IMG/VR virus record: IMGVR_UViG_3300024264_000172
Location: 1 to 24,034 of that record
Reading direction: 5' to 3' (one strand)
From: a virus
DNA: 24,034 nucleotides
The stretch's first letter is position 1, and the number at the start of each line of letters is the position of its first letter. A program made the position numbers and the translations under genes. This document shows, piece after piece, positions 4,319 through 24,034 of the stretch. The notes under the pieces are model-generated. The model worked only from the letters and a program-made list of their open reading frames with translations, was not told the DNA's origin and did not search any database.

Positions 4319-4441
4319 TTAATATAATAAAAATGATAGAAAAGGAAAAATACTTTCAACAAAGTCTTGTATTTTAAGCACATACTTTGAGTAGGTTATA
4401 TCTAACCAAGAAGTATCTAACCATACAATAAAAATTACCAT
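4319..4441 (-). CDS. Possible tiny membrane peptide (40 aa from ATG; frame may begin upstream)
   Basis: On the minus strand an ATG at 4441 opens a 40-codon frame with one strongly hydrophobic stretch (MVIFIVWL) and a second near the end (IFPFLSFLLY), joined by WLDTSWLDITYSKYVL. The frame is open upstream to 4483 and reads KKVNITVADLVLF before the ATG. That longer form would need a TTG (4447), ATT or ATA start. The ATA at 4483-4481 overlaps the stop of the preceding gene. No convincing ribosome binding site is seen for any of these. Codon choice (TTA, GTA, AAA) is like the neighbours and the frame fills the space up to the terminator. I cannot assign a function; the end of the lysis block makes a small membrane accessory protein possible. 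Confidence 0.4.
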   Translation of the reverse strand: MVIFIVWLDTSWLDITYSKYVLKIQDFVESIFPFLSFLLY

Positions 4442-4479
4442 AAACAATACTAAGTCTGCTACAGTAATATTTACTTTTT

Positions 4480-4707
4480 TTATTTACTTTTTCCCGATCC
4501 GGTATATAGGCCAAACCATGCAGCCCCCGCACCTACTACTATACTTACTAAACCTGATTGCTCCATAGTAGGATCTTCTATTCCCATGTACCATACAACC
4601 ACTTTATATAATAAGTAAATATAAGTAGTAATAAATAGTCTAGGAAATATTCTCCAAGAATCTACAGCAGTAGCCATATCTATCCATTTTTGATATTTAT
4701 TTTCCAA
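4480..4707 (-). CDS. Holin-like small membrane protein (75 aa, TTG start)
   Basis: The start is TTG at 4707-4705, set by a strong AAGGAG seven bases upstream; no ATG fits that site. The 75-aa product has an amphipathic N-terminus, a first membrane helix at ~27-43 (FITTYIYLLYKVVVWYM), the polar turn GIEDPTMEQ, a second helix at ~52-68 (GLVSIVVGAGAAWFGLY) and the basic tail TGSGKSK. Two helices, small size and a charged C-terminus fit class II holins, as does the position after the spanin genes. No endolysin is in the window to confirm a lysis cassette. Similar turn-plus-GAGAAWFGLYTGSG ends occur in membrane proteins of many phages, usually annotated hypothetical. Confidence 0.72.
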   Translation of the reverse strand: MENKYQKWIDMATAVDSWRIFPRLFITTYIYLLYKVVVWYMGIEDPTMEQSGLVSIVVGAGAAWFGLYTGSGKSK

Positions 4708-4721
4708 TTGTTATCTCCTTT

Positions 4722-5090
4722 TTATTTTTTATCTGTACTAGTTTTTGATTTTGAATATGCCTGAGCACCAAAGAATGCAGCAACTAGTCCGGCAATAGCT
4801 ACAAAATAAGTAGGCGCTATATCTCCTATTAACTGTGCAGCATCTTTTACTCCTAAAAAAGAAGTAGCTAATATTAAGATAGGATACAGTAGCATACCCC
4901 AAAGAGCAAACCAGGCCATAGCTCTTATTTGATCTTCTTTTTTATCTTCGTTTTCTTGCATATTACGTTTATGTTCAAATTCTGCTATTTCTTTTGCACG
5001 AGACATTTCTTCGTCTGTGATTATACCATCTCCATCTGCGTCTAGTTCCGCAAAAATAGAATCAGGTTGCAGTGTTTTTGCAGCTGCCAT
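4722..5090 (-). CDS. EF-hand calcium-binding membrane protein, holin-like
   Basis: The product is 122 aa; AAAGGAG lies upstream of ATG 5090. Residues 17-28 form a canonical 12-residue EF-hand loop DADGDGIITDEE: Asp17, Asp19, Asp21, Gly22, Ile24, Thr25 and Glu28 occupy positions 1, 3, 5, 6, 8, 9 and 12. A charged helix follows (~29-55, MSRAKEIAEFEHKRNMQENE). Two transmembrane helices come next at ~57-77 (AMAWFALWGMLLYPILILAT) and ~92-110 (PTYFVAIAGLVAAFFGAQAY), with a basic tail. The C-terminal hairpin resembles the neighbouring 75-aa protein, suggesting a shared membrane fold. The combination could let Ca2+ affect a membrane or lysis step; that is inference. A single EF-hand often pairs by dimerisation. 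Confidence 0.82.
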   Translation of the reverse strand: MAAAKTLQPDSIFAELDADGDGIITDEEMSRAKEIAEFEHKRNMQENEDKKEDQIRAMAWFALWGMLLYPILILATSFLGVKDAAQLIGDIAPTYFVAIAGLVAAFFGAQAYSKSKTSTDKK

Positions 5091-7105: not shown

Positions 7106-10100
7106 TTATGCTCCTGTAGCAGAAATTGTTATTTCAATATCGAGATTGTCAACAACATTCCCGTTTTGTGTATTAAATATAGTAACATTGCAACTTTCAT
7201 TTGTCAAATCGCTAGTTCTAGATATAAGGCTGGTATTAGCAGATAGTACTTGAGTAAATACCGTAGGTATTCTAAAAAATTCTGCACTGCTATAGTCTAC
7301 TACTAAGTTTCCTTGAATTTTGTTAGTAGAGCTTACAACTGTTGTAAATTCTTTTTTTATACCCCTGACTTCATAGTTTAATTCGTCTATAAAAGTATTT
7401 GCTGAGTCTCCATAATCATTTATATCAAACTCCGTTTTAACTTGAAAATACCTAAAACGTCTTAAACCAAAATAGTTTGATTGCCAGTTTTCTTCATCAT
7501 CTCCCTCATCAAACAGAGAAACATTGACATTTCCATGAGGTTTAGAAGAAACATTATCAGAAGCCTCAAAAACATTCGAAGATGAGAATCTTACATAAAC
7601 ATTCTTAGATACTTCTACATCAGGAGAAAAATCTCTAGTTCCAAAAGCGTCTATAAACTGATTCATATCTACTAATTTATAGCTGCTTCCAGACTGAGTT
7701 ATATTGGAAAGAGCAGTACTATTTGTAGCATTTCCTGTAGGTACAGGTTTTCCATTAGCGTAGTATACAGCACTTAATTCTATAGCATTAGTATTTATAG
7801 CGCCTGCGATAAGAGCATAACTATGTATATTAGAAACGTCATCGGCAGCGTTCATAGAGCCTACAACTTCTTGTCCCGGATTTACAACTACAAACACCTT
7901 ATTATTAGCAGAACCATCAGTTATAGTATTATGAGTATTACTGAAAGAAAAAGAAGATTCTGCATTATTATAGCCTACTACTGTTCCTATAGCAAAGTCT
8001 GAGTCAAATAAAACATTAGCCTCTGATGTGTGTCCCTCAGCTACTCCTACTATTAAGTCTTGAGATACATCTAAAAACTTTTCTAATAAAGAAGAATTTA
8101 CTAGGCTAGAAATAACAATGTTTCCTCGTACTACAGAACCTAAATCTCTAACAGGGCTTATATATACAGAGTTAGCAGAAGTAATAAGCAAGTCTGTTCT
8201 ATCTACTCCTTGATATTGACCTTGCGCCCATGAAAAACCATTAGAGGATGCGTTTGCATCTTCTGCTAAACTAGAAGGGGTATTTACTCCTAACACTACA
8301 GAAGTTACAGGGTCTACGTGATAAACAAAACCTCCATTATCTACTTCTGTAGCACCTACAAACACATTATCTCCATAATTGTAATTACCTACTGAAGAGG
8401 ATATATTAGTATTAGGAGCTGCTTCATTCCATATAGCTAGAGTATCTGTTTGTGTAGATATTTCTACTTGTAAATTTCTAGCCAAAGCGTTTAAAGAGTA
8501 ATTACCACTAGTATCTACAGTTTTTGCTGAGAAAGTATAAGAGCCAGAAACAAATCTATCTAAAGATATTTCTGCTCTACTTAGAGGATGAGGTAAAAGC
8601 ATTACTTTATCCCCTCTTAAGAAAGCATCATTAATACTATTTTGAGAATTAACACTTACTACTGGTTTTAAAGATCTAATTTCTGTATGTAAAATATCTA
8701 ATTCATCTAAATTATTTTGTGAATCAACAGGATATTCAATATCAAAAACTATAGAGTCGTTAGTCTGATTAAGATTAAAACTATTTAACGATAAGGGTCT
8801 AGCAGATTTACCAGATAAAGTAATTGACTTATATACAGGAATACCAGATATTAATCCGTTTATAGGAAGAATTTTTACTTGAAGAGAGTAAACATTTCCT
8901 GCTTGTCCTAAGTCTAAGTTGTTTATATTAAAATGAATATTACCATCCTCACCAGCTTCATTAGCATCTACTATAAAACTAGTAAAATTAGTCATGCCGC
9001 TGGGATGAGGATCTGATCCTGATAACTGTACTATCTTGTAACTAATATCATAAGTTTTTACATTTCTATTTATGATATGCGAAAACTGACCTATCACTCT
9101 TGACATAATACCTTTAGTTCTATCTCTAAATAAATTTTCAGATAAGACTACTTGGTCTTCAGGTACCTGTCCTAATGGAGGATAAGATGTAGCTACACTT
9201 TGAGTAATAGGAACACTAGATCTATTAAACTCATTTATAGCAGATACCTGAAATACAAATACACCTGCTGTAGCTGGAGTTTGTATCTTACTATCTACCA
9301 AAGTTACAGAGTTAAAGTCATTATAGCTAAAAGGAGCCAGTATATAAATACCATTATTTGCTAGTTCATATCCTTTATCATATTTAAGATCGTCATAAGT
9401 AATAGTTACTTTATTATTTATACTATCAATAGAAGTAATATCTGCAATTAAGTCTTCTGACGTATTCATTATAGCAGTCTTACCTACAGAAGAAGCAATA
9501 TTATCTGTAAGTTTTACCTTAAAAAAGTCCGAAGAAGTTAGAGCAGAGTTATAAGTAGGAGAAGAAGCTATGTAAGATACTGAATTTATTGTATTTAATT
9601 GTTCGTTATCAACTATAAATATGCTGTCTTTACTTTCAAATGCAGGAGAAGAATAGTTTTCTACTGAAGTAATTATCTGTAAGTCACTTGAAGCTATATT
9701 ATGCTCTATATAGCCGTCTCCTGTAGACCAAGAAAACTCAGTGGCTTCTTCTTCAATTAAGCTACCGTTTACAAAAGTGCTTATTAAGCCTTTAGCAGGG
9801 GGCACTACTCCTAGAGGTAAGGATAAAACGCCTGCCTGCTCAGCAACATTATGAGTATTAGACAGTATACTAAGAGCCCCAGACACAAAAAAAGTATTAG
9901 AAGTAGATATTGTAGGCTCTATTATTTGCTGAAGTTCTACATAAAAAGGAGAAGGCAATAAAGCATTTTTAACTACTGCTGCTACTTCTGCAGTATTATA
10001 ATCTATAGTTAAGGTATTAGCACTTATATTAAAAGAAGTTATATTAGAGCTTAGTGCTACTAAAGTAGAGTCATGACCTACAGTATTTTCTGTAGCTCCA

Positions 10101-10405
10101 GCAGTATTAGAGGCTGATTTTATATTTAAATTGTATCTAAGTAGGTTATCTGGTGCTTGACCTTTAAGAGTTACCAACTGGGTATTATTTCTAGCCTCTA
10201 ATAAGTGAGAGTCAAAATTATCATCATACATTAAGTGTAAGTTAGACACAGAAAAAGTAATACTAGTATCAATTAATTCAGTGTTTAAAACTAAAGGTTT
10301 TACAGTACCTAAAGATGACTTAGCTCCATTCTTCCCAAATAAGGCTGCAGAAGGTTGACCCACAAAAGGTGTAGTGTTAGACACTAATAAATTTAAATTA
10401 GCCAT
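7106..10405 (-). CDS. Large tail protein, distal gpJ-like with fibronectin-III-like segments (1,099 aa)
   Basis: Its ATG at 10405 overlaps the stop of the upstream gpJ-like gene (TAATG). The 1,099-aa sequence is rich in Ser, Asn, Val and Thr and is predicted mostly beta, with no membrane helix or signal. Stretches with FN3 character are visible: AGVFVFQVSAINEFNRSSVP (~385-405) followed by the PPLGQVPEDQVV linker, and GSYTFSAKTVDTSGNYS (~620-640). In lambda gpJ, FN3-like domains follow the hub domains in one polypeptide; here the hub (829 aa) and this protein are separate ORFs. That suggests a two-chain host-specificity protein. The C-terminal ~400 residues are unrecognised and may hold the receptor-binding part. 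Confidence 0.72.
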   Translation of the reverse strand: MANLNLLVSNTTPFVGQPSAALFGKNGAKSSLGTVKPLVLNTELIDTSITFSVSNLHLMYDDNFDSHLLEARNNTQLVTLKGQAPDNLLRYNLNIKSASNTAGATENTVGHDSTLVALSSNITSFNISANTLTIDYNTAEVAAVVKNALLPSPFYVELQQIIEPTISTSNTFFVSGALSILSNTHNVAEQAGVLSLPLGVVPPAKGLISTFVNGSLIEEEATEFSWSTGDGYIEHNIASSDLQIITSVENYSSPAFESKDSIFIVDNEQLNTINSVSYIASSPTYNSALTSSDFFKVKLTDNIASSVGKTAIMNTSEDLIADITSIDSINNKVTITYDDLKYDKGYELANNGIYILAPFSYNDFNSVTLVDSKIQTPATAGVFVFQVSAINEFNRSSVPITQSVATSYPPLGQVPEDQVVLSENLFRDRTKGIMSRVIGQFSHIINRNVKTYDISYKIVQLSGSDPHPSGMTNFTSFIVDANEAGEDGNIHFNINNLDLGQAGNVYSLQVKILPINGLISGIPVYKSITLSGKSARPLSLNSFNLNQTNDSIVFDIEYPVDSQNNLDELDILHTEIRSLKPVVSVNSQNSINDAFLRGDKVMLLPHPLSRAEISLDRFVSGSYTFSAKTVDTSGNYSLNALARNLQVEISTQTDTLAIWNEAAPNTNISSSVGNYNYGDNVFVGATEVDNGGFVYHVDPVTSVVLGVNTPSSLAEDANASSNGFSWAQGQYQGVDRTDLLITSANSVYISPVRDLGSVVRGNIVISSLVNSSLLEKFLDVSQDLIVGVAEGHTSEANVLFDSDFAIGTVVGYNNAESSFSFSNTHNTITDGSANNKVFVVVNPGQEVVGSMNAADDVSNIHSYALIAGAINTNAIELSAVYYANGKPVPTGNATNSTALSNITQSGSSYKLVDMNQFIDAFGTRDFSPDVEVSKNVYVRFSSSNVFEASDNVSSKPHGNVNVSLFDEGDDEENWQSNYFGLRRFRYFQVKTEFDINDYGDSANTFIDELNYEVRGIKKEFTTVVSSTNKIQGNLVVDYSSAEFFRIPTVFTQVLSANTSLISRTSDLTNESCNVTIFNTQNGNVVDNLDIEITISATGA

Positions 10406-12894
10406 TATATAGCCCCCAGTACAGGTACAAAGCTTGAGCTAGGTATAAAAGCTTGAGCTATTTGAATATTAGAACTGCTCTGTACGTTAAATAAAAAGTT
10501 TAAAATTGGATTACCAGCACCTGTATTGGTGTACACAGGGCTAATAGAAAATATAGGAGGGGCAGGTTTTATAAGAGGATTAGCTATTGTTTTAATAGGT
10601 ATAGGCTCAAAGTTTATAATATTTTCACTATCTATATACACTTTTGGTACATATTCACTAGCAGAAATACTAGTTTCTGCACCAGAGGGCATAGATATAG
10701 AATCTATCCTAAATAATTTTGCAGCGTTAGTAGAGTAGTAGTTATTAGGATCTATTTCTCCAAGGGCCCATAAGTCTTTTTCTTTAGGAGTATTAAAAGG
10801 ATCGAAAGTGCTAATTCCTACAAATGTGTTTACTAAAGGATCCCACTTACTTAAAGCTTTAACTTCTATAAAGTCATAACCAGATAATGCTCCTTGTACA
10901 TTACCCGTAGTGGCATAAGAAACTTGAGTATTGCTTATAATATAAAGCTCAGATTTACCGCTTTCTTGGCTATAGTGACGTAAGGCTAGGGGTTGCGTAT
11001 TACTTTCAAATACAGTATTAGAAATTGGAGGATAAGAAATATGTTGTAGTTTTACATTTGTTGTAGCGCTACTAGCCGAAGAATTATCTTGAATAATACC
11101 ATTATACCCATATATAGAGCCTACTGTCTGAGTTGATAAAGAAACAATAGTCCCAGGGGTTAAATCTGAAGTAGTTACAAAAGTAGAAAATTCTACTTTT
11201 CTTTTTACATATTTTTTAGAAGCTAATATATATTGAGCAAATCTAATAGCTTCACTTCGTCTAGAACAGCCTATTAAATCTATACTAGCTACTCTTTCCT
11301 CTAGCATATCAGAATCAGGGTCGTATATCTTTATTAAGTCTTTATTATAGTTATTAGCCCCGTCATTAAAAGATACTTCTACTGCAGTTATATAGTCTTC
11401 TGCTCTATTTCCTGAATATTTGATCGCTGTTAAATTAACTTCGTTGAACATTTGCTCTGGAAGGGAGTTAGGATAGTCTAAAACTAATCCTATCTTATCA
11501 TTACTAATTTCTAAATAACCTTTGGCAGACGCAACTATTTTATTTATAAGCTCATAAGTTTCTATAGAGTCTGTCACACTAAGATCACATACTATCCTTC
11601 TTTCTTTTATGACTTTAGAAGAGGATAAACCTATTTGATCTTCTAGTATAGACGTAAATTGTCCTCTAGGCTTATGACGTATACTACCATCAGCGTATGT
11701 TTCAACACCTATAAATTTTCCTGTTTCAGGCTCTACTGCATCAAATATTTGTGAAGCTTTATAAAAGTTATACTTATCTATGTAAGACTCGGGTATTCCA
11801 TATCCATAAGAAGTATTAGTTAATAAATCATATATAATCCATGCAGGATTCTGAGTCCAGTCATATTTAAAAGTACCATCCCAAATACCTTTATAAACTA
11901 TAGGATTAGCATCAAAACTAACAATTCCTGGAGAGGACTGAAGTTCGTATCCTGTAGAAGTTATGTCATCAACTTCTACTTCTCTCCAGTCTACTTCCCC
12001 ATTAGTTAGTATAGGTTGATCATAATTAGAAGGGACTTTAACTATAAGACCTTTTACTAAACTAGAGTAATTTAGAACAGCATCTGATCTTAGCCCAGTA
12101 GCTTTTAAAGCATAGCCTATACTAGCTGTTCTAGGGTACGAGAAAGGTTCGTGAGATATTTCATTAAAACCTAAAAAAGAAACTTCAGAACTAATCTCAG
12201 AGTCCAAAGTGTCATCTGAACCTTTTAATACTGATACTCTATATCCATTATCACTTTGGTTAGCTGAAGGTATACTTATAGGTACTTCTAATATAGTATC
12301 AAAGGTAATAGTTTCAGTAAAAGAGTGTTGTACTAAAGCAATATAGTTATTTATGTTTGATGTTTCATTTCTATCGTGTACTATTATTCTTAAATCTAAT
12401 CTTTGATTCTGTGGTCCTGTAGTAGAATTATTATTAGTATCTTGTTTGTATAACTCTTCGACAGAAAATTTAAATACTAAAGTGTCTATAGGATTATCTC
12501 CTACAGAAGCAGAAGTCGGAAAAAAGATTACATTAGCTTCAGGTACTCCCGTTACAACACCTTTTATCTGTCCCGACTTAAGAACCACAGGAGAGGAGAA
12601 TCTTAAATTATTTGTCACTTCATCGCTGAAAGGAGTGAGTACCTGCTGATTAATACTACCAGTAGTACTTTTGTATTGAAAAACATAAGGATCTGGCTCA
12701 TTATTAACAGTTATTAAATCATCAATAAACTTACCATCTACTCTAATATCTTGAACACCGTTTGGATTTATTCTGTATATAGGCCCTTCACCAATAGCGA
12801 CATGACTAAACTGAATATCTGTATTTAGTTTAGTTAACTGCTTTTGAAATGTTTGATTTTGCCCTACAGATAAGGTCAGTGGTGAAATAGCCAT
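10405..12894 (-). CDS. Tail-tip attachment (central fibre hub) protein, lambda gpJ-like
   Basis: An 829-aa protein matching the N-terminal and hub parts of lambda gpJ (COG4733-like). Family signs include GEGPI at 35-39 followed by INPNGVQDIRVDGKFI, and ~346-375 QNPAWIIYDLLTNTSYGYGI (family pattern NPAW-lYDLLTN--YG-G), then IDKYNFYKASQIFD. RRIVCDLSV and ETYELINKIVASAKGYLE follow at ~435-465. GpJ forms the trimeric tip of the siphovirus tail, contacts the receptor and closes the tube. It follows the gpM-L-K-I-like genes in canonical order and is coupled by TAATG overlaps on both sides. It is shorter than lambda gpJ (1,132 aa) and stops about where FN3 domains would begin; the next ORF seems to supply these. 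Confidence 0.88.
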   Translation of the reverse strand: MAISPLTLSVGQNQTFQKQLTKLNTDIQFSHVAIGEGPIYRINPNGVQDIRVDGKFIDDLITVNNEPDPYVFQYKSTTGSINQQVLTPFSDEVTNNLRFSSPVVLKSGQIKGVVTGVPEANVIFFPTSASVGDNPIDTLVFKFSVEELYKQDTNNNSTTGPQNQRLDLRIIVHDRNETSNINNYIALVQHSFTETITFDTILEVPISIPSANQSDNGYRVSVLKGSDDTLDSEISSEVSFLGFNEISHEPFSYPRTASIGYALKATGLRSDAVLNYSSLVKGLIVKVPSNYDQPILTNGEVDWREVEVDDITSTGYELQSSPGIVSFDANPIVYKGIWDGTFKYDWTQNPAWIIYDLLTNTSYGYGIPESYIDKYNFYKASQIFDAVEPETGKFIGVETYADGSIRHKPRGQFTSILEDQIGLSSSKVIKERRIVCDLSVTDSIETYELINKIVASAKGYLEISNDKIGLVLDYPNSLPEQMFNEVNLTAIKYSGNRAEDYITAVEVSFNDGANNYNKDLIKIYDPDSDMLEERVASIDLIGCSRRSEAIRFAQYILASKKYVKRKVEFSTFVTTSDLTPGTIVSLSTQTVGSIYGYNGIIQDNSSASSATTNVKLQHISYPPISNTVFESNTQPLALRHYSQESGKSELYIISNTQVSYATTGNVQGALSGYDFIEVKALSKWDPLVNTFVGISTFDPFNTPKEKDLWALGEIDPNNYYSTNAAKLFRIDSISMPSGAETSISASEYVPKVYIDSENIINFEPIPIKTIANPLIKPAPPIFSISPVYTNTGAGNPILNFLFNVQSSSNIQIAQAFIPSSSFVPVLGAI

Positions 12895-13511: not shown

Positions 13512-13866
13512 TAAACTTTTCGTACCTTTTAATATTTTTATCTGTGTCATACCAATATATGTAAAAATTTTTATTATTAAATAATATAAATTTTATATCT
13601 GGATATACGGTTAAAGACATATCTAATTCTGAGGGAGTTTCAAACTTTTCATCTGTATGAGAATGAAAAATACCCCATATATTTTCGTCATACCTATTAA
13701 CAACAATAGGATCAATTATAAAACTGTGTCTAGGATTATTACTTAAGTTACTGCTGGGTATAAATTCAAAGTCTAAAGTAATTATACCACAAGCCTCTAA
13801 AGGGTACTGAGACTGAGAATATTTGCCTATTGTATCTAAAAGTAAATTAAACTTTGTTTCTAACAC
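13489..13866 (-). CDS. JAB/MPN (JAMM) metalloprotease domain protein, lambda gpK N-terminal-like
   Basis: The 125-aa product starts at GTG 13866, supported by GGGGAGGG about eight bases upstream. The JAMM zinc site is visible: Glu24 (YPLEACGII), His68 and His70 (IFHSH), Ser79 and Asp82 (PSELD). The usual spacing is HxH-x7-S-x2-D; here eight residues separate His70 from Ser79, a one-residue insertion. Lambda gpK has this domain fused to an NlpC/P60 peptidase; here only the JAMM part exists. It may cleave or process a tail-tip component; the precise substrate is unknown even in lambda. The start lies 20 bases inside the gpL-like gene and the end overlaps the gpI-like gene. Confidence 0.85.
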   Translation of the reverse strand: MLETKFNLLLDTIGKYSQSQYPLEACGIITLDFEFIPSSNLSNNPRHSFIIDPIVVNRYDENIWGIFHSHTDEKFETPSELDMSLTVYPDIKFILFNNKNFYIYWYDTDKNIKRYEKFNEDHCKY

Positions 13867-15637
13867 CGGGAAACCCTCCCCAATTTAATAAATTATTTCG
13901 TAATTTACAAGCAGATATACTTTTAGAACATTTATCTAAGTTAGGGTCAGAAGTCGCCACATTATTTATAGTGAACATACCATTAGCAGTTTTAGGTAGC
14001 ACACTATTGCTAATTACCCCTGTGCCTCCACTAGGATACTTACACTCTACTCCTTTATATTTCCAAGGGCAAGTGTTTTTATAAAATTTTCTTCTTGGCA
14101 CTTCTTTTAATAAATTAGTTGTTCTACTTCCTAAGTTAAAACTAATAGAAGAATCATTATATGAGTTAAGTTTATTAATTGTAAACTTTCTTTCTACATA
14201 AGCATCAGGATCATAATTGCTATTATTTATTAAAAGTTTATCTCCTATTACAGCGCCAGTAATAGATTGATCTAATTTTATATAGTTATTACTATAAACA
14301 TTTGTAATAGTGGCAGTACTAGTACTTACATTACTATTTACGGTGTCTCCTACTCTATAGGGGGCTGTAGATTCTAAGCGTATAGAATCTCCAGATACTC
14401 CACTTATGATAGAAAACTCAGGCCAATACTCTAGTGAAGATGCATAATAGCTTCTTACTTCTACTACCGCCCCTAATAAGTCTCTACTATCCGGCATCAA
14501 AGAAACCCATTCTTCTCCTAAAGAGCTAGTAGTACTATAATCATAAGGTTGATTTTGTCCTCTAGAATCTGCTATATCTGAGTCATAAGAAGGGTTAGAA
14601 AGTACAGTTCTTGGATCAATGTTAGTTAGTACCTCACCGTTAACAGTACTAGATATTGCAGAAGTATTATTGTACCCTACTAGGAAAGGATCTTCTACTA
14701 AGGTGGGTAGAGCTAAATCAATACTACTTATTTCTAAGTCTATCTCTCCTATAGATCCATCAGAGCTAATAGAGATTCCAGGATAGTTAATAGGAAAAGA
14801 TACGTAGTTATTACTTTGATGAGTTATTGTATAGTCCTCAATAGAGAAGTCTTCTCCTATTATTTCTGCATATCTAATAGGGAAACCGTAAGGCCAAGGC
14901 CTTCCTGCGCCTTCTCCTGTAGGATTGCCCTTATCATTAGCAGGATACCACTCTCCTGGATAGTAGATAGAGTATAATCTTACAATAGGTTCTTCTTCAA
15001 AAGCATTTCTATTTAACACAAAGTTAGAAGGATATATAGTAGTTATAGTACTAGATCCTGTTTGTATTTGAGTAGTAGGAGTATTAGATCCTAAAAAAGA
15101 CAAAGAATCTTTATCTCCCGTAGATATTTTCAGAGTTAAACTAGTAGTACCCGTAGTAGGAAAATTAGCACTAGTTACTATAGCCCTATCATTAGCTGCT
15201 GGAAAGGTTACTATTTCTATATCTTTAAAATCTACTCCTACACCATCTAAAACTGTACTAGGCCATACATATTTTTCAGATTCTATAAATACATTATCAG
15301 CATATATTTCAATTTCTGCTTTATGTGAGGGAACATGCGGTAGAGCAAAAGTGTTACTTGTGCCATTTATAGAGTATGAGTTACTATCTATTACTATAGG
15401 AGTAGAAGTAAAAGATTGTTGGTAGGTAGCAGATGTATTTACTGTTACATTGGAAATTATATTTTCTGAAGAAATAAAGTAGTGTTTAGAATTGGCTACT
15501 TTTACTTTTAGATTACTACTATCCTTAGCTATTACTTGACCAAAAGCATTAGAAGAAACTCCTAGCACAGAATTTCCTACAGAGAAGCTACTTGTATCAG
15601 CTAGTTTAAGTATAAAATCATAAGAACGAGAAGACAT
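13847..15637 (-). CDS. Tail-tip protein, lambda gpL-like with four-Cys C-terminal cluster, enlarged
   Basis: The 596-aa product's C-terminal 76 residues match lambda gpL as I remember it: NTCPWKYKGVECKY, then LDKCSKSISACKLRNN and NWGGFPG. The four cysteines (Cys523, Cys532, Cys570, Cys577) are those that bind an iron-sulfur cluster in lambda gpL. A middle segment (~225-340) with EPIVRLYSIYYPGEWYPAND and WPYGFPIRYAEII probably corresponds to the rest of gpL. The ~200 N-terminal residues (Ser/Asn/Thr-rich, beta) are extra; gpL of lambda is only 232 aa. A further inserted segment (~350-480) has SLMPDSRDLLGAVVEVRSYY. GpL helps close the tail tip. The start overlaps the gpM-like stop by one base. 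Confidence 0.85.
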   Translation of the reverse strand: MSSRSYDFILKLADTSSFSVGNSVLGVSSNAFGQVIAKDSSNLKVKVANSKHYFISSENIISNVTVNTSATYQQSFTSTPIVIDSNSYSINGTSNTFALPHVPSHKAEIEIYADNVFIESEKYVWPSTVLDGVGVDFKDIEIVTFPAANDRAIVTSANFPTTGTTSLTLKISTGDKDSLSFLGSNTPTTQIQTGSSTITTIYPSNFVLNRNAFEEEPIVRLYSIYYPGEWYPANDKGNPTGEGAGRPWPYGFPIRYAEIIGEDFSIEDYTITHQSNNYVSFPINYPGISISSDGSIGEIDLEISSIDLALPTLVEDPFLVGYNNTSAISSTVNGEVLTNIDPRTVLSNPSYDSDIADSRGQNQPYDYSTTSSLGEEWVSLMPDSRDLLGAVVEVRSYYASSLEYWPEFSIISGVSGDSIRLESTAPYRVGDTVNSNVSTSTATITNVYSNNYIKLDQSITGAVIGDKLLINNSNYDPDAYVERKFTINKLNSYNDSSISFNLGSRTTNLLKEVPRRKFYKNTCPWKYKGVECKYPSGGTGVISNSVLPKTANGMFTINNVATSDPNLDKCSKSISACKLRNNLLNWGGFPGVRNKV

Positions 15638-16017
15638 TAAGCCACCTCGGTTAATATTAGAGATATATTAAATATATCAGTATTATCGCCAGAAATTACA
15701 TGATTTATGTCTAAAGATTCAGAGAACTTAACATTAGCAGTTCCTGATAATCCAAAATGAGCTAAGTCTAATTTAAAAGTCTCAAAGTCTCCACCCCTGT
15801 CTAAGTAAAAATTTTCAATACTAATTTTTCTAGCTTCGCTTATATTCGTATAGCTAAAAGTAAATTTTCTTAGTACTTTTCTAGATAATCTTTTTCTTTT
15901 TTCATATCCTAAAACAGAGCTAAAAGACGTATTATTAGGGGCTCTAGCAATGCTATAGCCCCTATCTGGTTTTCTATCGTTCATTGACGCATCATCTGGA
16001 TATATGTATGTTGCCAT
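15637..16017 (-). CDS. Minor tail protein, lambda gpM-like
   Basis: The product is 126 aa, close to the gpM family (109 aa in lambda). Recognisable pattern: RGYSIARAPNNTSFSSVLGY, then KRLSRKVLRKFTFSYTNISE, a helix and FYLDRGGDFETFKLDL, ending in a beta strand ISLILTEVA. This follows the order of gpM-like tail-tip ring proteins, with a Y-R-Ap start, a strand pair, then a helix and a G-W/F-F segment. It lies six bases after the tape-measure stop and overlaps the gpL-like start by one base, as expected for the H-M-L order. GpM forms part of the ring joining the tube to the tip. Confidence 0.8.
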   Translation of the reverse strand: MATYIYPDDASMNDRKPDRGYSIARAPNNTSFSSVLGYEKRKRLSRKVLRKFTFSYTNISEARKISIENFYLDRGGDFETFKLDLAHFGLSGTANVKFSESLDINHVISGDNTDIFNISLILTEVA

Positions 16018-16023
16018 GTCCCT

Positions 16024-19000
16024 CTACTTTATCTTCTTAATAGTCTTCTTAATAGGACCATTAGTTCTTAAATCTTTAAGTATAACATCTACTACTACCT
16101 TGCCATCTATTATACTAACTTTAGGCTCAGCTTCTACGTCTACTGGAGACCCGTTATTAGTAATATTTACTTCTACATTAGTATCACCTTGAGGTAGTTG
16201 TCCTGTATTATTTATATAGTCTAAAGTATTTACCCCCACATTGTCAACAGATGAATTTCTAATAATATACTCACCGTCCGACAACATAGCCATAATAGAA
16301 TCACTAGTACTAGTACCAGCACCTGAAACCATACCTCCATCAGCAAAAGAAGGATAAGCATTTTGTAGTCTTGTTATTAAACTATTTATATTGCTTGTGC
16401 CTCTGATTCTGTTGTTAAACTGAGAACCTCTATTGAACTGTATAATATTAGGTCGATCATATTCAAACCACGCATCAGAAATAGAGTTAAAGGCTTGAGA
16501 ATGCGTAAAGGATTTTCCATCTCTATTAGCTGCTATATATCTTGTAAGCTCTACTAATACTTTTTTAGCAAAAGTATTATTAGCAAAATTTGCTGTATTC
16601 CAGCTAGCATTACTACCTATTTTTTCTGGACTATAACCTTCTGGATTATTTGTGTTACTTATAATTGATGTAGCAGCAGATAGTGCTGCGTCTCTAATAC
16701 CTAGTAAAGGATTAAATCCATCAAAGAAAAATTCTTTAAGACCAGAAAGAGGATTTTTAGAGCCTGAACCCCCTATTGATTTAAGCATTTGGGCTTCTAC
16801 AGAGTTAATATGTGCTAATTCTGTATCTCCTTTTCTACCTAAGGATGCTATAGACCCTGTAGAGTTAAGCATATCTAATACGTCTCTACCCATACTCTTA
16901 GCAGAAGAAGCTTTTATTACATACTCGCCATTAGACAAGTTAGCACGAACAGAGTCGCTAGTAGAAGTTCCTGGTCCTACTACAGGGCCTCCAGTTGCTA
17001 AACTAACTTCTGTTGCTCCTGAGTATTTATAGCGAGTTTTATTCTTATTTGTATTACTTATTATATCATCTAAGTTATTAGAAAGATGATCTAAATTACC
17101 AGAAATATGAGAGGTTGCATTATCTGCATTAGTTTTTAAATGGCTTGTATCTTGATCTATTGTTTTAAGATATGCACTATTAGTAGCTATACTTTCTAGA
17201 TAGGTAACCATATTTGAAGTGTCTATTTCTATAGCGTCTAATACTCCATCTATAGCAACTAAAGTCTTTCCTTGGTCAGTAAGCTCTGAAGACATACCAG
17301 GTAGATACAATACATATCCTTCAATAGCATTTGCTGTTTTCTCTAAAGTATCCAAATTATCAGAAATATGATCTAGTTTCTCTGCCAAGTCTTTTGCAAT
17401 ACCATCTAAATCATCAGAAATATGATCTAATTTTCCTTCTATACCATCTGTGTGATTTTCTATTTTAGTAAGTTTAGACACATTTTCAGAAGTGTTAGTC
17501 TTAATATCAGAAGTATTAGCTTTAATATCTGCTAAATCTCCTAAAGAGGTAGAAATAGCTTCTAAGTAAGCTGTATCTTCTAATATAGCTGCATGAAAAT
17601 CTGAGTCTGCTTTTGCAATATTTGTAAGTTTTTCGCTAGATACTTTAGTATAACTTTTTATAGTTTCTAACTTACCATAATTAGTAATTAGATAGGAATC
17701 TTGATCATTAACTGCATCTGTTAGAGTAGATAGCTCAGATTCAAACATAGCGCTAACATCTATTTTTACTTTATTAAAGTTAAATAAATCGTTAGCTGTT
17801 ATAGTGCTTTGAGTAGGACTAAAGAAATTTAAACCTGCTAATTCACTTTTAGTGGGTGTAAAGAAAGAAGCCCCTGATTGCTCACTAGCAATAACTTCCC
17901 AGAAATCAGCCCCTGCTTTATCACTCTTAGTTATATTATATACTTGATTAGCTGTTTTATCTAAAGTACCGGATACTTTGAATACGTCAGAAGATTGAAC
18001 AGTAAGCGTGCCATTAACGTCTAGTACATTTTTAGCTTCTGCTATGTATTTAGAGTCAGCTAAGTAACTTAAATCAATAAAGTCTGCACCTTTAAGTTGT
18101 ACTCCTGAAATAGTAAAGAAGTCAGTAGCAGTTTTACTTTCTTTGTCAAGATCGTAAAGATTATTAGCATCTATTTTTTGTAAAGTATTGCTTAATACAA
18201 ACAAAGATGAACCATCTACAGATTGTGATGTAGGATTAAATAAATCAAGAGCGGATACGGGTTCAGGGGCTATAAAGGTAAATAGATCTTTTGCGTCCAT
18301 TTTATCTGCAGGATCTACCTTAAACCAGCTACTCCAATGTAGACTTTCTTTACCTGCATCATCAGGAAGTTTAAATAGTGTTGTATATTCTATATCTGTA
18401 GCTTCTAAGTTAAATAAATCTAAGTAGCTAATATCAACACTATCAATATCAAAACCTGAACCATTCCAGTTATCAAAAATATCACCTGTAGCAAGAATAG
18501 CCTTATTTGCAAGACCTTCTTTAAGCTTGTCTTCATTAATTACTTGGCCTACACTTATTACAGCTTTTGTCCACTCAAAAGCTCCGCTATCGTAATTACT
18601 AAATATGTCAGATAAGCTTAAAGCCATCTTTGAAGTAGGTTTATCAAATATCTCATCCGCTCCTACTTGTATTCTATTATTAGCCTTAACAGTTATAAGT
18701 GTTGACGCTGCAACTGAGTCTGCGGTTATAGAAAATAAAGTACTACCTGTAACTTCACTTTTTTGAATAGTGAATAGTTCTATAGCTGTTTTTGTAGATT
18801 TTGATATTTGTATAAAATCAGTAATATCTTTTTCAACTATCTTAAAGAAGTTTGTATAATCAAAATCTTTAGCAGTTATCTTAAAGAAGGTTGAGTAGTC
18901 TTTTTCTATAGAGTTTATAGAGTATAAATCATCAGCATTTTTTGAACTTTTGTTTATAGTAAATAAAGAATCGGCATCTACTGTAACAGGATCTATATGG

Positions 19001-22000
19001 TCTGTTAAAGCTATTTTATCTTCGGGGTCAAAAAATTGAGAATATTTAACAGCTACCTTAGTTAAGGTAAACCAATCTGTATAGTCTATATCTTTTTTAG
19101 TAGGTAGATTATACCATAAGTTAGCTGTATTGTCTAGCTTAGTAGGTAGATTATACCAAGTAGCTACAGAGTGATCTACTTTAGTAGGCGCTTCAAAAAA
19201 TGTCTGATAGTTAGCGGCAGATTTAGTTATTGTAATCCAATCAAAAATGCCTGTCTCTTCTTTTACTATTTTTAACCATTTATTAAAGTTAGTATCTATC
19301 AAAGTAGGATCATTAAACCAACTATTATAATCAGTGTCTATTAAAGTGGGGGCGTTAAACCATTTATCAAAATCAGTATCTACTGTAGTTATATTAAAGA
19401 AATAGTCTCCACCATTACCAGTAGCTATAGAGGTAACAGATACAGGGGTTAAGTCAAAGAAAAATTCATAATCTACTTCAATAGGATCTACTATATAAAA
19501 TTCATCTATAGCAACAAGCTTAGGTATTACAATATAAAAATAATCAGCGGGTCTAGTTATAGGCTCTTCTACTTCAAATAGCTGACCTGTGAGACCTAGT
19601 ATTCCTGATTGATTTAAACTCGGTAAACCCGTTGTAGAACCCGTAGGTACCGTAGTAGTAGTAGCTCCCCCCGTAGAAGCAGTAGGAGAGGTAAAGGTAG
19701 AAGTAATATTAGCATAAGTAGGCAAGGTGCCTCCTTGTAATATTAACATATCTTCTAAAACAGTTCTTATCTGCTCTAGTATTTGATTAGTGTAGAATAA
19801 ATAACCAGGACTTTGAACTCCTAAACCTTGGGTTAAGATTTGTTGAAGTAAAGAAGTTTGAGTACTTATTTGAGGATTATTAACTGCTCCCGAACCTGTA
19901 ATTGCTTGTGCAGCTATATTAGTTGTAGACCCTGAAGTAGAAACTCCTGATAAAGTTAAAGGATTCTGTAGTAATGCTATAGAATCTAATACAAATTGTT
20001 CAAAGGTTGCATCCATGTCTGCAATATTACTGTTACCCATAGTACCTAGTAATGAAGTTATTGTGTTTTCTAAATTTATAAATTCTGCATTCAAGTCATT
20101 AAATTCTTGTAACGGAACTACGGGAGTTACTGCAGCTATCGATCCATATAGATTTTCAAAAGCAGTTTTGGCAGCGACTATGCCGGTAAAGTTATTTAAT
20201 ATATCATTTAAATCTGAGATACCTCTATAACTTGTATCTACTACATCTATATTTACCTCGTCCGCAGGGTTAGATATTACATCTAAGGTATCTATTATTT
20301 CTTGTATGCCTGTAGCATTTATAGCAGAAACTGCAGTAGTTATGTCTGAAAATACTTGATTAGCAGATTGCATCTCTGCTATAAAAGAAGACAGACTTAA
20401 TGTACTACTATTAACAGCGGTAGTAGAAGCTACTAAATTAGGAGTAAAATTAGCATTTAAAGCTGTAGTGAAATCATCTAAAAGCTGATTAGAAGTATTA
20501 AATGCAGTTCTAGCATCTATAGCATTTTGAAGCAAATCTTGACTTATACCTTGTAAGGTTAAGTCTACTTGTTGTAACCCTGCCGTAGTATTATTAAAGT
20601 TTAGCTCTTCTTCAACTTTTAATAAGTCTAAAGTAGCCTCTTTTAATGCGTCTGTAGATTGCGTTCCTGCAGATATTTGATTATTAATGTCATCTATCTC
20701 TGAAAGTTTTCTACTTATTTTTACAAATTTATCTGCAGAGTCAGGAAGTGTTTGGAGTATGGCTAAGTCTGCTAAGCTATTAGCAAGATTAGTTTGTAGA
20801 GCTGATAAAGATTGAGACGTATTTATATTGCCTAAAGAAGTAATACCTGCTTGAACATCTATTTGAAGTTGTTTTAAGTACTGATCTAAACCTGCATAGC
20901 CCTGATATGTAGGATCTAAGCCTTTTACAATATCATCTATTCTAGATATATGACCATCTAAGTGTCCTCCAGCATCTATAAATGCGTTTTGAGCACTAAA
21001 TAGTACGCCGTATAATGATTCTTCTGCTTCTTTTTGTTGCGCTACAGCTTCTTGATACATGGTCTTAACATCAGCTAATGTAGTTCTATAAGTGGTTACC
21101 AGAGTTTTAAGTAAGTCTTCTAGCTCCTCAGTTATAGAAGTAAAAGAAGAGTGTAAAGTAGTTTTAAAGTTATCAAGATTTGATTCTGCTTCTCTAAAGG
21201 CATTAGACATACCACTAAATAGATCTAAGAACTCCATAAAGGAAGACTGTAAAAAGGCTACTCCTTCTTTGTATGTATCAGTATCTATAGTCTCTCCAAC
21301 TTCTAACTGATAATTTAATTGCTCTAAAGCAGTAGATAGTGCTTGAACACTTGAAGAGCCACTCTTAGATAGAGTAGCAAAATTAGTTAATGTACCTAAG
21401 AAATTAGTATCTAACTCATCATCTATTATTATGCCTGCTGCTTGTATACTACTAACGACAGAAGCACTTAAAGTTCTAGTAAAGTTTCCTGATGATTGTA
21501 CTAAATTATTGTAAAATCCTACTAACCCTTGCTCAAAAGTACCAAAGGCAGAAGAGACTGCTAGTATTTTTCTTACAGCTATTTCTGCTATAGCACCTGT
21601 TTTAAAAGTTGCGTCTGCGATTGAATCTTGAGTATCTCTAATTATTCTAAGCTGCTCATCAGATGAATTTTTAATTAAATCTATTCTTTCTTTTTCTAGT
21701 CTTTTATTAAGTCTAACTTGTACTGTAGCAGCGTCTATAGTATCTATAAACCCATCGGTAACTGCATCTGTCATAGTATTCATACCGTCTTCAAATGCAT
21801 ACTGAACAGATCTTATGGAGCTTATAATACCTGTAGGGTCCAAAGTCATATCTTGAAGCTCTAAGAAGAAAGAAGAGTACTCATCTAAAGATGCTAAGGC
21901 ATTGTCAAAATCTGAAGTAACATCGTCTAATATAGATCCATATTCATTACCAAATATAACTCCTTGAGATAGCGCTATATTCATTTGACTTATCACAGCT

Positions 22001-24034
22001 TCTAAGTCTCCAGCAGTTACAGAAGAAGTATTTATACTATTGTAAAAACTAGTTAAGTTATCTGTTAAAGTACCTATATTTTCATTTTGCAAATTAACAC
22101 CGGCAGAAGCTAAAGCTTGTTGTGCCTGATTTTGAGACAGGGAAAGAGTATAGGCTTCTGTAGCGGTAGTAGCCTCTGTTAAATTATGTGCTATATCAAA
22201 TACTGCAGTAGCGAGACCTATTTCTCCTCGCTCTATATGATCTACTATAATACCAAAAGCATTCATAAGGTCATTACTAGCCCCTGCTGCTTTTCTAAGA
22301 TCTGAATAAGTTTCAAAAAGTTCTATATTAGCTTGAGCAACTATCTCTCTAGCTTCATAAAACTCTAAAGTAGTAGTCATATCTTGGCTGAAGTTTTTAA
22401 ATAATGCTTGAGTAGCAGGATTTATACCAAAAGTACCTCCAAACGCATCAGTAGCTATTTTATTAGGAGTAATAACTCCTCCTGTAGCACTACCGCCATC
22501 TTCCATCTTTTTAAAGGCTCCAGAATTAAAAGCAGCTAAAGTGCCTACTCCAACATTCTTAACTGCCTCTTTATTTAGTACATACTCTCCAGGCATTAGT
22601 AATGCGGGCACAGAATCTTTATTTTGTTGTTCTGGAGTTCCAGGCACAAAACCGCCCTCAGCAAAAGCTAAGCCTCTTCCTACAGATCTTGAACTTCTTT
22701 GTGCTTGAGTAAGTTGTTTTGCTCCCTCAAATATATTATTCATAACTCTTCTAGTTATTTCAGCATCAGTAGCTGCTTTCATAGCAGCATTACTAAACTC
22801 TTGTCCAGCACCTGCTAACTCACTAAGAGCTTTTAATTCTTGATCTGAAGCTTTAGCTACTATATTACCTCTTTGAATAGCTAAAGCTCTTTCTGCACGA
22901 GCTATAAAGTCATAACCATTACCTAGCTCTTCTTGAATATAGGCAGCATCTCGTACTATAGCCTGTTGATACTCTAATACATCTTTTAATCCTTGAACAG
23001 CGCTTGATTCTAGACTATCACCAAACTGAATTACGTCACTTAACGCATCCCCAAAGTCTTGAGCCATTTGTCTAATTTTAAGTGCTATGCCTTCTTCTAT
23101 TATTCTAGCTGCATCTTTAGAACCTTGTCCTGTAGCCTCAAGAGCTTCTTGCATAGCATTCATTTCCGCTTTTACAGTTTCCATAGCCATAGCCATACCA
23201 CTCAAATTAGTAGACGTATCACTAAGTAAACTTACAGTACCGTCTTGAGCTACATGTAAGTCTAAATGAGCTAAAACCATATTATGAGCTGCCTCTTGTG
23301 CTCTTTGTAGTTGCTCAGACATGAGTCCAAATATTCTTGCAGATTCGTCTATTAAGTCTAATGCTTGCTGTAAGGCTCCTTGCGCAAATGAAGCAGCTGC
23401 AGCTTCTGCTTTAATATTTACTAATTCTATAAACTCACCAAGATTAGTAAATTTACCTCCTGCAGATTCTAATTGCGTCATCAAACCATCAAAGCCTTTA
23501 GCAAAATTAAGGTCTTTCATGTTATCTTCTATCTCTTTATCGAAGTCCATATTACCTATAGCGGTTTTCATGTCTTCCGTTAAAGATCTAGGATCTAAAC
23601 CTTTAATAAGTCCTTCAAATAAGTCCTTACCAAAGTTTTCGCTATCAAAGTCTAATCTAACTGCATCAGCCCCTCCACCCCTCAGCTCTAAGAACCTTTC
23701 TTTAATATCTGAACCTTTAGTGGTTAGTATTGCTTGTGCTTCAGTAAATCTCTGAAGACCTCCAGTAACAGTTTCTAATGCTTGATTCATTTTAAATGCT
23801 GATTTAGCTACAGGATCAAGATCAACTCCACTATCTTTTCTATCTATTATGTTTCCAGTAGTCAAGTCAGCAGTTGATCTATTCCACTTACGAGGAGCAA
23901 AAAAGTTGCTAAGACCTTCTAGTGCGTCGCCAATAAGTCCAGATATAAAGTCACCCGCTATAAAATCTATAGCAGTCATAGCTATACCACCTACAGGGCC
24001 TAAAGCTGTGGTAATAAAATCTTTTATAAATCCA
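16024..24034 (-). CDS. Tape-measure protein (lambda gpH-like), 5' end beyond window
   Basis: This gene sets tail length and is threaded through the tube before DNA ejection. The frame is open to the window edge: upstream of the ATG at 23979, 18 further codons without a stop read GFIKDFITTALGPVGGIA, so the real start probably lies outside. At least 2,669 residues are encoded. The N-terminal ~350 residues are helical and Ala/Glu-rich. Three modules (FAEGGFVPG.., LATGGPVVGPG.., FADGGMVSGAG.., each ending in GEYV/I and a Gly-Val-rich helix) occur. The middle is Thr/Ser/Gln/Asn-rich helix, then an array of 13-14-residue repeats (17731-19550), then DHISDNLD-type heptads and the C-terminal modules. 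At ~1.5 Å per residue it predicts a tail near 400 nm, if wholly helical. Position ahead of gpM- and gpL-like genes confirms the call. Confidence 0.93.
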   Translation of the reverse strand, partial: GFIKDFITTALGPVGGIAMTAIDFIAGDFISGLIGDALEGLSNFFAPRKWNRSTADLTTGNIIDRKDSGVDLDPVAKSAFKMNQALETVTGGLQRFTEAQAILTTKGSDIKERFLELRGGGADAVRLDFDSENFGKDLFEGLIKGLDPRSLTEDMKTAIGNMDFDKEIEDNMKDLNFAKGFDGLMTQLESAGGKFTNLGEFIELVNIKAEAAAASFAQGALQQALDLIDESARIFGLMSEQLQRAQEAAHNMVLAHLDLHVAQDGTVSLLSDTSTNLSGMAMAMETVKAEMNAMQEALEATGQGSKDAARIIEEGIALKIRQMAQDFGDALSDVIQFGDSLESSAVQGLKDVLEYQQAIVRDAAYIQEELGNGYDFIARAERALAIQRGNIVAKASDQELKALSELAGAGQEFSNAAMKAATDAEITRRVMNNIFEGAKQLTQAQRSSRSVGRGLAFAEGGFVPGTPEQQNKDSVPALLMPGEYVLNKEAVKNVGVGTLAAFNSGAFKKMEDGGSATGGVITPNKIATDAFGGTFGINPATQALFKNFSQDMTTTLEFYEAREIVAQANIELFETYSDLRKAAGASNDLMNAFGIIVDHIERGEIGLATAVFDIAHNLTEATTATEAYTLSLSQNQAQQALASAGVNLQNENIGTLTDNLTSFYNSINTSSVTAGDLEAVISQMNIALSQGVIFGNEYGSILDDVTSDFDNALASLDEYSSFFLELQDMTLDPTGIISSIRSVQYAFEDGMNTMTDAVTDGFIDTIDAATVQVRLNKRLEKERIDLIKNSSDEQLRIIRDTQDSIADATFKTGAIAEIAVRKILAVSSAFGTFEQGLVGFYNNLVQSSGNFTRTLSASVVSSIQAAGIIIDDELDTNFLGTLTNFATLSKSGSSSVQALSTALEQLNYQLEVGETIDTDTYKEGVAFLQSSFMEFLDLFSGMSNAFREAESNLDNFKTTLHSSFTSITEELEDLLKTLVTTYRTTLADVKTMYQEAVAQQKEAEESLYGVLFSAQNAFIDAGGHLDGHISRIDDIVKGLDPTYQGYAGLDQYLKQLQIDVQAGITSLGNINTSQSLSALQTNLANSLADLAILQTLPDSADKFVKISRKLSEIDDINNQISAGTQSTDALKEATLDLLKVEEELNFNNTTAGLQQVDLTLQGISQDLLQNAIDARTAFNTSNQLLDDFTTALNANFTPNLVASTTAVNSSTLSLSSFIAEMQSANQVFSDITTAVSAINATGIQEIIDTLDVISNPADEVNIDVVDTSYRGISDLNDILNNFTGIVAAKTAFENLYGSIAAVTPVVPLQEFNDLNAEFINLENTITSLLGTMGNSNIADMDATFEQFVLDSIALLQNPLTLSGVSTSGSTTNIAAQAITGSGAVNNPQISTQTSLLQQILTQGLGVQSPGYLFYTNQILEQIRTVLEDMLILQGGTLPTYANITSTFTSPTASTGGATTTTVPTGSTTGLPSLNQSGILGLTGQLFEVEEPITRPADYFYIVIPKLVAIDEFYIVDPIEVDYEFFFDLTPVSVTSIATGNGGDYFFNITTVDTDFDKWFNAPTLIDTDYNSWFNDPTLIDTNFNKWLKIVKEETGIFDWITITKSAANYQTFFEAPTKVDHSVATWYNLPTKLDNTANLWYNLPTKKDIDYTDWFTLTKVAVKYSQFFDPEDKIALTDHIDPVTVDADSLFTINKSSKNADDLYSINSIEKDYSTFFKITAKDFDYTNFFKIVEKDITDFIQISKSTKTAIELFTIQKSEVTGSTLFSITADSVAASTLITVKANNRIQVGADEIFDKPTSKMALSLSDIFSNYDSGAFEWTKAVISVGQVINEDKLKEGLANKAILATGDIFDNWNGSGFDIDSVDISYLDLFNLEATDIEYTTLFKLPDDAGKESLHWSSWFKVDPADKMDAKDLFTFIAPEPVSALDLFNPTSQSVDGSSLFVLSNTLQKIDANNLYDLDKESKTATDFFTISGVQLKGADFIDLSYLADSKYIAEAKNVLDVNGTLTVQSSDVFKVSGTLDKTANQVYNITKSDKAGADFWEVIASEQSGASFFTPTKSELAGLNFFSPTQSTITANDLFNFNKVKIDVSAMFESELSTLTDAVNDQDSYLITNYGKLETIKSYTKVSSEKLTNIAKADSDFHAAILEDTAYLEAISTSLGDLADIKANTSDIKTNTSENVSKLTKIENHTDGIEGKLDHISDDLDGIAKDLAEKLDHISDNLDTLEKTANAIEGYVLYLPGMSSELTDQGKTLVAIDGVLDAIEIDTSNMVTYLESIATNSAYLKTIDQDTSHLKTNADNATSHISGNLDHLSNNLDDIISNTNKNKTRYKYSGATEVSLATGGPVVGPGTSTSDSVRANLSNGEYVIKASSAKSMGRDVLDMLNSTGSIASLGRKGDTELAHINSVEAQMLKSIGGSGSKNPLSGLKEFFFDGFNPLLGIRDAALSAATSIISNTNNPEGYSPEKIGSNASWNTANFANNTFAKKVLVELTRYIAANRDGKSFTHSQAFNSISDAWFEYDRPNIIQFNRGSQFNNRIRGTSNINSLITRLQNAYPSFADGGMVSGAGTSTSDSIMAMLSDGEYIIRNSSVDNVGVNTLDYINNTGQLPQGDTNVEVNITNNGSPVDVEAEPKVSIIDGKVVVDVILKDLRTNGPIKKTIKKIK
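16197..16350 (-). repeat. Tape-measure GG...GEY module, copy 3
   Basis: FADGGMVSGAGTSTSDSIMA is followed by MLSDGEYIIRNSSVDNVGVN and TLDYINNTG. It lies about 60 residues from the C-terminus. The GVNTLDYINNTG end resembles GVGTLAAFNSG of copy 1, and the GTSTSDS core that of copy 2. Confidence 0.8.
16855..17005 (-). repeat. Tape-measure GG...GEY module, copy 2
   Basis: LATGGPVVGPGTSTSDSVRA is followed by NLSNGEYVIKASSAKSMGRD and VLDMLNSTG. The GTSTSDS core is identical to copy 3 about 0.65 kb downstream, pointing to duplication within the gene. Confidence 0.8.
17731..19550 (-). repeat. Array of degenerate 13-14-residue repeats in the tape measure
   Basis: About 600 residues read as a run of short units with the form [W/F/L][F/Y]-x-[I/P/L]-x-[K/T]-x6-[A/D/S]. 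Examples in order are WFNAPTLIDTDYNS, WFNDPTLIDTNFNK, WYNLPTKLDNTANL, FFKITAKDFDYTN, LFTIQKSEVTGST, FFTPTKSELAGLN and LFNFNKVKIDVSA. Most are exactly 13 or 14 residues; some are interrupted by longer units (11-21, one of ~40). I count roughly thirty or more. Early units favour W-Y/F-N-x-P-T, later ones L-F-x-I/P-x-K-S. Strand in this listing is the coding strand. Confidence 0.85.
19097..19158 (+). repeat. 20-bp direct repeat, 42-bp period, in the tape-measure gene
   Basis: The identical 20-mer TTAGTAGGTAGATTATACCA occurs at 19097-19116 and 19139-19158, 42 bp (14 codons) apart. Each copy encodes the W-Y-N-L-P-T-K part of a repeat unit on the minus strand. Exact DNA identity among otherwise diverged units points to a recent duplication of one unit. 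Confidence 0.85.
22524..22672 (-). repeat. Tape-measure GG...GEY module, copy 1
   Basis: FAEGGFVPGTPEQQNKDSVP leads to ALLMPGEYVLNKEAVKNVGV and TLAAFNSG. It shares the layout GG-x-V-x-G...DS-x-x-A-x-L-x-x-GEY-[V/I]-[L/I] followed by a Gly-Val-rich helix with copies 2 and 3, but has a longer, more divergent linker. Such modules occur in tape-measure proteins of many siphophages; their role is not established to my knowledge. Confidence 0.75.

Follow-up and report, generated by a model that had tools for sequence, protein, structure and literature searches.

A tandem array of 13- to 14-residue units in the predicted tape measure protein of a marine siphovirus

Tape measure proteins (TMPs) set tail length in a very large group of viruses, with the length of the protein determining that of the tail. 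To our knowledge, full atomic structures of these proteins are scarce and most of them have no visible tape unit. Here we describe a long tandem array of 13- to 14-residue units in the predicted and unusually large TMP of a marine phage (IMG/VR record IMGVR_UViG_3300024264_000172, positions 1 to 24,034); "the window" below refers to this whole stretch of 24,034 nucleotides.

The closest described systems are TMPs with tandem repeats, in which seven Phe or Trp residues are spaced at 11 or at 11-11-18 residues (Belcaid 2011, PMC3271669), as in TP901-1 (PMC5099701) and phage p2. Those repeats and the array described here are alike in being tandem TMP units with aromatic residues at fixed spacing, and in both the number of units appears to vary by duplication; in TP901-1, deletion of TMP repeat sequence gives a proportionally shorter tail (PMC5099701). 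The present array differs in its spacing of 13 or 14 residues, in having a bulky pair where the known repeats have a single residue, in being predicted to contain strands instead of being helical, and in its position near the C-terminus of a TMP of 4,400 to 5,000 residues. A second point of reference is the helical TMP coiled coil of HFTV1, gp40, in which 315 residues span exactly 11 rings, or 28.6 residues per ring (PMC12494034). Both segments are thought to occupy the lumen of the tail tube, although no heptad pattern is seen in the array and the prediction for it is not helical.

The repeat array

Within the array, autocorrelation of the aromatic residues gives z scores of 8.7 at lag 13 and 6.6 at lag 14, against a 99th percentile of 3.9 for the shuffle maximum, so the periodicity is significant relative to shuffles. 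Scanning with a position matrix recovers about 41 units from the window and 36 to 55 per lineage from four further lineages. Over all five lineages the spacing between units is 13 in 93 cases and 14 in 54, and averages 13.4 when spacings of 11 to 16 are counted. When trained on the window alone, the matrix finds 16 units in lineage L019, 26 in L026, 25 in L028 and 29 in L025, while the same matrix applied to shuffles finds a mean of 1 to 2 units, with maxima of 4 to 6. Taken together, the autocorrelation, the matrix counts against shuffles and the lag statistics rule out a chance origin. A frame or assembly artefact is ruled out as well, since the open reading frame (ORF) stays intact across independent contigs and evolves under purifying selection. 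Relative to L001, a close relative of the window (95% identical, on an 82-kb virus contig), the ratio of nonsynonymous to synonymous substitution rates (dN/dS) is 0.06 in the array and 0.07 and 0.12 in the flanks; the array is thus under purifying selection no weaker than that on the remainder of the gene.

The consensus of 219 units is [A/G/F/Y/W]-[S/D]-[D/E]-[L/F/W]-F-[N/D/T]-[I/V/L/P]-x-[K/P/T/A]-x-x-x-x. Conservation between distant orthologues peaks at positions 4 and 5: in the comparison with L019, 56% and 51% of residues at these positions are identical, against 8-41% elsewhere in the unit. The array is acidic, with a net charge of -42, and is high in Pro, Thr and Asp and in Trp, Phe and Tyr. 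At the DNA level, copies at spacings of 39 and 42 nucleotides persist in places within the array, as would be expected if it grew by unit duplication. An initial annotation, made from the letters of the window, had placed the array at 17731-19550, close to the measured 17746-19593, and its figure of about 600 residues agrees with the 616 found, but its count of some thirty or more units was too low. Its description of the unit holds for the bulky pair (positions 4 and 5) and for the Ile/Val/Leu/Pro at position 7, whereas the Lys/Thr that it took to be conserved is only a weak preference at positions 8-9.

The array can be set apart from the known kinds of TMP sequence, as had been proposed at the outset. 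Over the 1500 residues that lead up to the array, hydrophobic periodicity peaks at lag 7 (z 5-6), which is coiled-coil-like; in the array, the top hydrophobic lags are 13, 14 and 27, lag 7 is not among them, and the heptad periodicity of hydrophobic residues that would mark a coiled coil is absent. The helix moment is likewise weak in the array (z 3.4) compared to the upstream region (z 8-10). Searching the five array-lineage TMPs for seven Phe/Trp residues at 11 or 11-11-18 spacing yielded zero matches, and there is no signal at lag 11 in the array; aromatic markers at fixed spacing in tandem units are present, as in those systems, but at 13 or 14 residues. In 52 other TMP-like ORFs, the lags above background are 7, 14, 11, 21 and 18; lag 13 does not rise above it.

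The unit of the array was not found among about 50 other TMP-like ORFs having the generic C-terminal motif. In isolated phages, there was no match to the window array (E value of 1 or below) or to the most regular units, those of L028 (E value of 10 or below), and no prophage or host copies were found in the prokaryote genome collection scanned. Profile and sequence comparisons of the array with Pfam, PHROGs and PDB gave no match and no known domain. A match to Venkman lies in a small unrelated gene, not in the array. A TMP repeat of 13 to 14 residues is not described in the literature searched (subscription literature being outside its scope). Judged from sequence, then, the array is a real and conserved type of TMP repeat, and a new one as far as the searched literature goes.

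Length classes and 27-residue arrays among relatives

Relatives were collected by searches with the L-like tail protein and with TMP alignments. The array is found in five independent lineages: the window together with L001 and L002 (95-98% identical), L025, L019, L026 (on the same contig as L020), and L028 (identical to L029). Identity of the array to that of the window is 55% for L025 and 26-28% for L019, L026 and L028. Further scans turned up no additional array lineages.

The arrays come in two length classes, a shorter one of 616, 616, 617 and 623 residues and a longer one of 921 and 925. Within a size class the length is near constant, though the sequence diverges to 26% identity. BLAST of the window array against that of L026 gives two alignments, with offsets near 0 and near 310-350, and residues 276-579 of the L026 array align to residues 583-886 of the same array with a score of 314, where shuffles of 13-residue blocks reach at most 116. 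In L028 the internal duplication is less clear than in L026, with a score of 192 versus 124 for shuffles. On the basis of the double BLAST offsets and of the L026 self-alignment, the long arrays contain an internal tandem duplication of a block of about 307 residues, and stretches related to the irregular DIFxN...GxF stretch of the window array (Table 1) occur twice in L026, about 307 residues apart. Such duplication is seen only in the long arrays. We considered whether the window array might itself be two copies of a super-repeat of about 308 residues (616 = 2 x 308), but the score of 126 is not significant against a block-shuffle maximum of 123. The initial annotation had suggested that unit number may vary between relatives; it does vary, but as one block of about 307 residues and not unit by unit.

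Two more distant large TMPs, L043 and L044, have a C-terminal domain 46-50% identical to that of the window. At the place of the array they hold about 15-18 units of 27 residues, nearly free of indels, with z scores at lag 27 of 21 and 23. These arrays resemble the window array in place and in their related C-terminal domain, and 27 is 2 x 13.5; they differ in sequence and have no bulky pair every 13-14 residues. In a third TMP, L048, 27-residue units lie directly before the C-terminal motif.

In an alpha-helix, 27 residues measure 40.5 Å (27 x 1.5 Å), about one ring of the tail tube, which in P74-26 rises 40.25 Å per ring (PMC10034513). A stretch of 13.4 residues reaches the same distance of about 40 Å at 3.0 Å per residue, that is, nearly extended. 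This coincidence is a hint, and no more, that tape repeat units are in register with tube rings. Lag 27 is not otherwise raised in TMPs (the same 52 TMP-like ORFs), so a 27-residue register is not a general rule. We regard it as unlikely that each 13- to 14-residue unit is near-extended and spans one ring of about 40 Å, with the sister phages using 27-residue helical units instead. If this reading were true, the tape units would be ring marks, and a block of about 307 residues (23 units) would add about 23 rings.

The tape measure gene and its surroundings

The ORF that bears the array is cut off at its 5' end by the edge of the window, and L001 has the complete form, of 4420 residues. The visible portion matches tape measure families PHROG 3547, 5448, 6090 and 25241, and the N-terminus of the L001 protein matches PHROG 3779 (E value 5e-43). 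In L001 the gene is preceded, in order, by genes for a tail terminator, a major tail protein and two tail assembly chaperones; downstream of it in the window are L-, K- and J-like tail genes and spanins. Thus a very long ORF of the tail module lies between the tail assembly chaperones and the minor tail proteins, and it resembles TMP families. From these PHROG matches and the tail-module gene order, it is identified as a siphovirus TMP, and a very large one, in agreement with the initial annotation. Complete TMPs in the array lineages have 4420, 4585, 4985 and 4967 residues. The TMP of Thermus phage P74-26 has, we presume, about 5,000 residues. That phage, which has an extremely long tail (PMC10034513), is like the array-bearing phages a long-tailed siphovirus; no sequence relation to it turned up, and no specific comparison was made.

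Table 1. Coordinates of the array, of other parts of the TMP and of related features (window positions unless another contig is given)
Feature	Position	Strand	Details and basis
Repeat array	17746..19593	-	616 residues, about 41 units of 13-14 residues; TMP residues 1481-2096; autocorrelation and position matrix
Array, first zone	18661..19590	-	Position 4 mostly aromatic, position 1 often aromatic
Array, conserved irregular stretch	18427..18660	-	Two longer segments, 36 and 42 residues, with DIFxN...GxF motifs
Array, second zone	17746..18426	-	Position 1 mostly A/G, position 4 L or F
DNA-level trace of unit duplication	19271..19382	-	Three 28-nucleotide copies at 42-nucleotide (14-codon) spacing; family D1
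Identical 20-nucleotide pair	19097-19158	-	42 nucleotides apart; family D5
TMP ORF, 5' end cut off by window edge	16024..24033	-	2669 residues visible; PHROG tape measure families, gene order in L001
Predicted helical, heptad-periodic part upstream of array (visible portion)	19705..23979	-	Lag-7 hydrophobic periodicity; helix moment z about 9; no 13-residue periodicity
TMP motif GGFVPG...DSVPALLMPGEYVLNK	22519..22659	-	Sequence; PHROG 35029 match at this place
Thr/Ser/Gly/Pro-rich linker just before array	19594..19704	-	Sequence
C-terminal part, about 570 residues	16027..17745	-	Coiled-coil-like stretch and two GGxVxGxGTxTSDSI-type motifs; extreme C-terminus strongly conserved
Minor tail protein-like gene downstream of TMP	15637..16017	-	phrog_15525
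Minor tail protein L-like	13847..15637	-	PF05100
Central tail fibre J-like protein	10405..12894	-	Pfam/PHROG-type family matches
27-residue array, L044	L044:2-10276		TMP residues about 2315-2800; unit e.g. NSALSGVNFVTNRDSSVAQINAVNTNI
27-residue array, L043	L043:2-10330		TMP residues about 2386-2800
27-residue array, L048	L048:5042-10399		TMP residues about 1380-1580; seven or eight units, different sequence

The C-terminal coiled-coil part of the L028 TMP contains tandem 21-residue repeats (SIDNKLTDTNNFLE..., three heptads) at residues of about 4441-4560, which are not present in that form in the window TMP. Elsewhere in the window, the J-like protein is followed by a protein of 1099 residues (7106-10405, minus strand), likely a tail fibre of unknown type, with no Pfam or PHROG match, and a small protein with a weak EF-hand-like match (4722-5090, minus strand) lies at the end of the lysis and tail cluster. 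On the plus strand are the end of a ribonucleotide reductase small chain (1-315) with an adjoining tRNA-Thr (317-392), a flavin-dependent thymidylate synthase (2927-3592) and a phage-encoded, GroES-like Cpn10 (3605-3892). The best isolate matches of the thymidylate synthase, at 61% identity, are to the Methylophilales phages Melnitz, which is a clue to host or habitat, though not proof.

Predicted structure and proposed role

For the whole array, AlphaFold2 with a nine-row alignment gave a predicted local distance difference test score (pLDDT) of 35, with an HHHH-EEEE pattern drawn locally. A second run used eight units and an alignment built by cutting the five arrays into non-overlapping tiles, a design that biases AlphaFold2 towards regular answers; the resulting model has a mean pLDDT of 65.5, 41 residues above 70 and a predicted template modelling score (pTM) of 0.30. 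In this model each unit consists of one strand of about 5 residues, a loop and a helical turn of 3-4 residues, which lends modest support to the unit of strand, turn and short helix proposed in the initial annotation. Rather than a continuous alpha-helix, AlphaFold2 gave strands and no long helices, at low confidence. Foldseek searches with the array models found no match at an E value of 1 or below, although the models are too weak for this to be decisive. Most arrays, though not all, show a likeness between neighbouring units at positions 1 and 4, a weak and inconsistent signal of the ladder that a solenoid would have.

Our best explanation, which in its full form we consider probable, is that the array is a repetitive, quantised spacer, not a coiled coil, in a giant siphovirus TMP. 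By analogy with TP901-1, with HFTV1 and with phage Douge, in which the C-termini of the TMP trimer are located in the baseplate hub or tail tip (PMC13033339), the array would lie in the tip-side part of the tail-tube lumen, between the long helical part on the head side and the C-terminal part seated in the tail tip. Each unit may fold as a short helical turn and one short beta-strand, and the whole array, as a single chain or a trimer, would form a thin beta-rich rod, with a set number of tail-tube rings assembling around it. Duplications would then make the tail longer in steps. The regularly spaced aromatic pairs may be contacts with the tube, with partner TMP chains or with a tail assembly chaperone. 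Several points weigh against this explanation. Members of the array type are known from sequence alone; the whole-array model is poor, the better one, with its low pTM, comes from an alignment of repeat copies, which may have steered it towards regularity, and neither has a fold match. In addition, substituting alanines for one repeat of TP901-1 did no harm, which suggests that aromatic anchors may be dispensable (PMC5099701).

That same alanine replacement, with its small effect, also argues against the idea that the units serve chiefly to dock the two tail assembly chaperones, their aromatic pairs keeping the TMP soluble and extended during assembly and their fold in the virion mattering little. 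The position of the two chaperone genes directly upstream, the conservation of positions 4 and 5, and the proposal, made for phages with 11/18 spacing, that chaperones bind to aromatic anchors set at fixed intervals (PMC3271669, PMC5099701) all fit such docking, but the long helical part of the TMP presumably needs chaperones too and lacks such anchors, and we consider the idea quite improbable. The array might alternatively be a module that spans the host envelope on ejection, stored compactly near the tail tip, leaving first and refolding or associating into a beta-rich conduit or periplasmic bridge, in which case unit number would follow envelope geometry and not tail length. It has been proposed that TMPs are expelled and build a channel through the envelope (PMC13033339), the array is distal in the TMP, about 570-690 residues from the C-terminus, and its units are aromatic-rich with short predicted strands. 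On the other hand, strands of 5 residues are short, the acidic array has no obvious membrane-spanning stretch, and the two sharp length classes are also what a ruler would give; we would give this module little chance.

A further alternative is a plain alpha-helical segment, in line with well-studied TMPs, which are mostly helical. The 13/14 spacing would then be an unusual hydrophobic stripe, with two units (26.8 residues) measuring about 40 Å, or one ring; the indel-free 27-residue arrays at the same place in L043 and L044 and the weak helix moment that persists in the array are in keeping with this. The array nevertheless has no lag-7 signal, lag 13 is at background in the other TMP-like ORFs where lags 7, 14, 11, 21 and 18 are raised, AlphaFold2 draws strands instead of long helices, and the Pro/Thr/Asp and aromatic content is high. 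A plain helix seems to us very improbable.

If the array is indeed a spacer, the two natural array sizes are a clean natural experiment. The block of about 307 residues would add about 93 nm to the tail if extended (about 3.0 Å per residue), about 46 nm if helical (1.5 Å per residue), about 25 nm if folded as a trimeric beta-fibre, which has about 1 nm per unit, and about 11 nm if a solenoid (4.8 Å per unit), so that tail lengths would discriminate between these models of rise per unit. The array matters in that it offers a clear unit in a TMP, distinct both from the known 11-residue repeat and from a coiled coil, and comes in two natural sizes about 307 residues apart.

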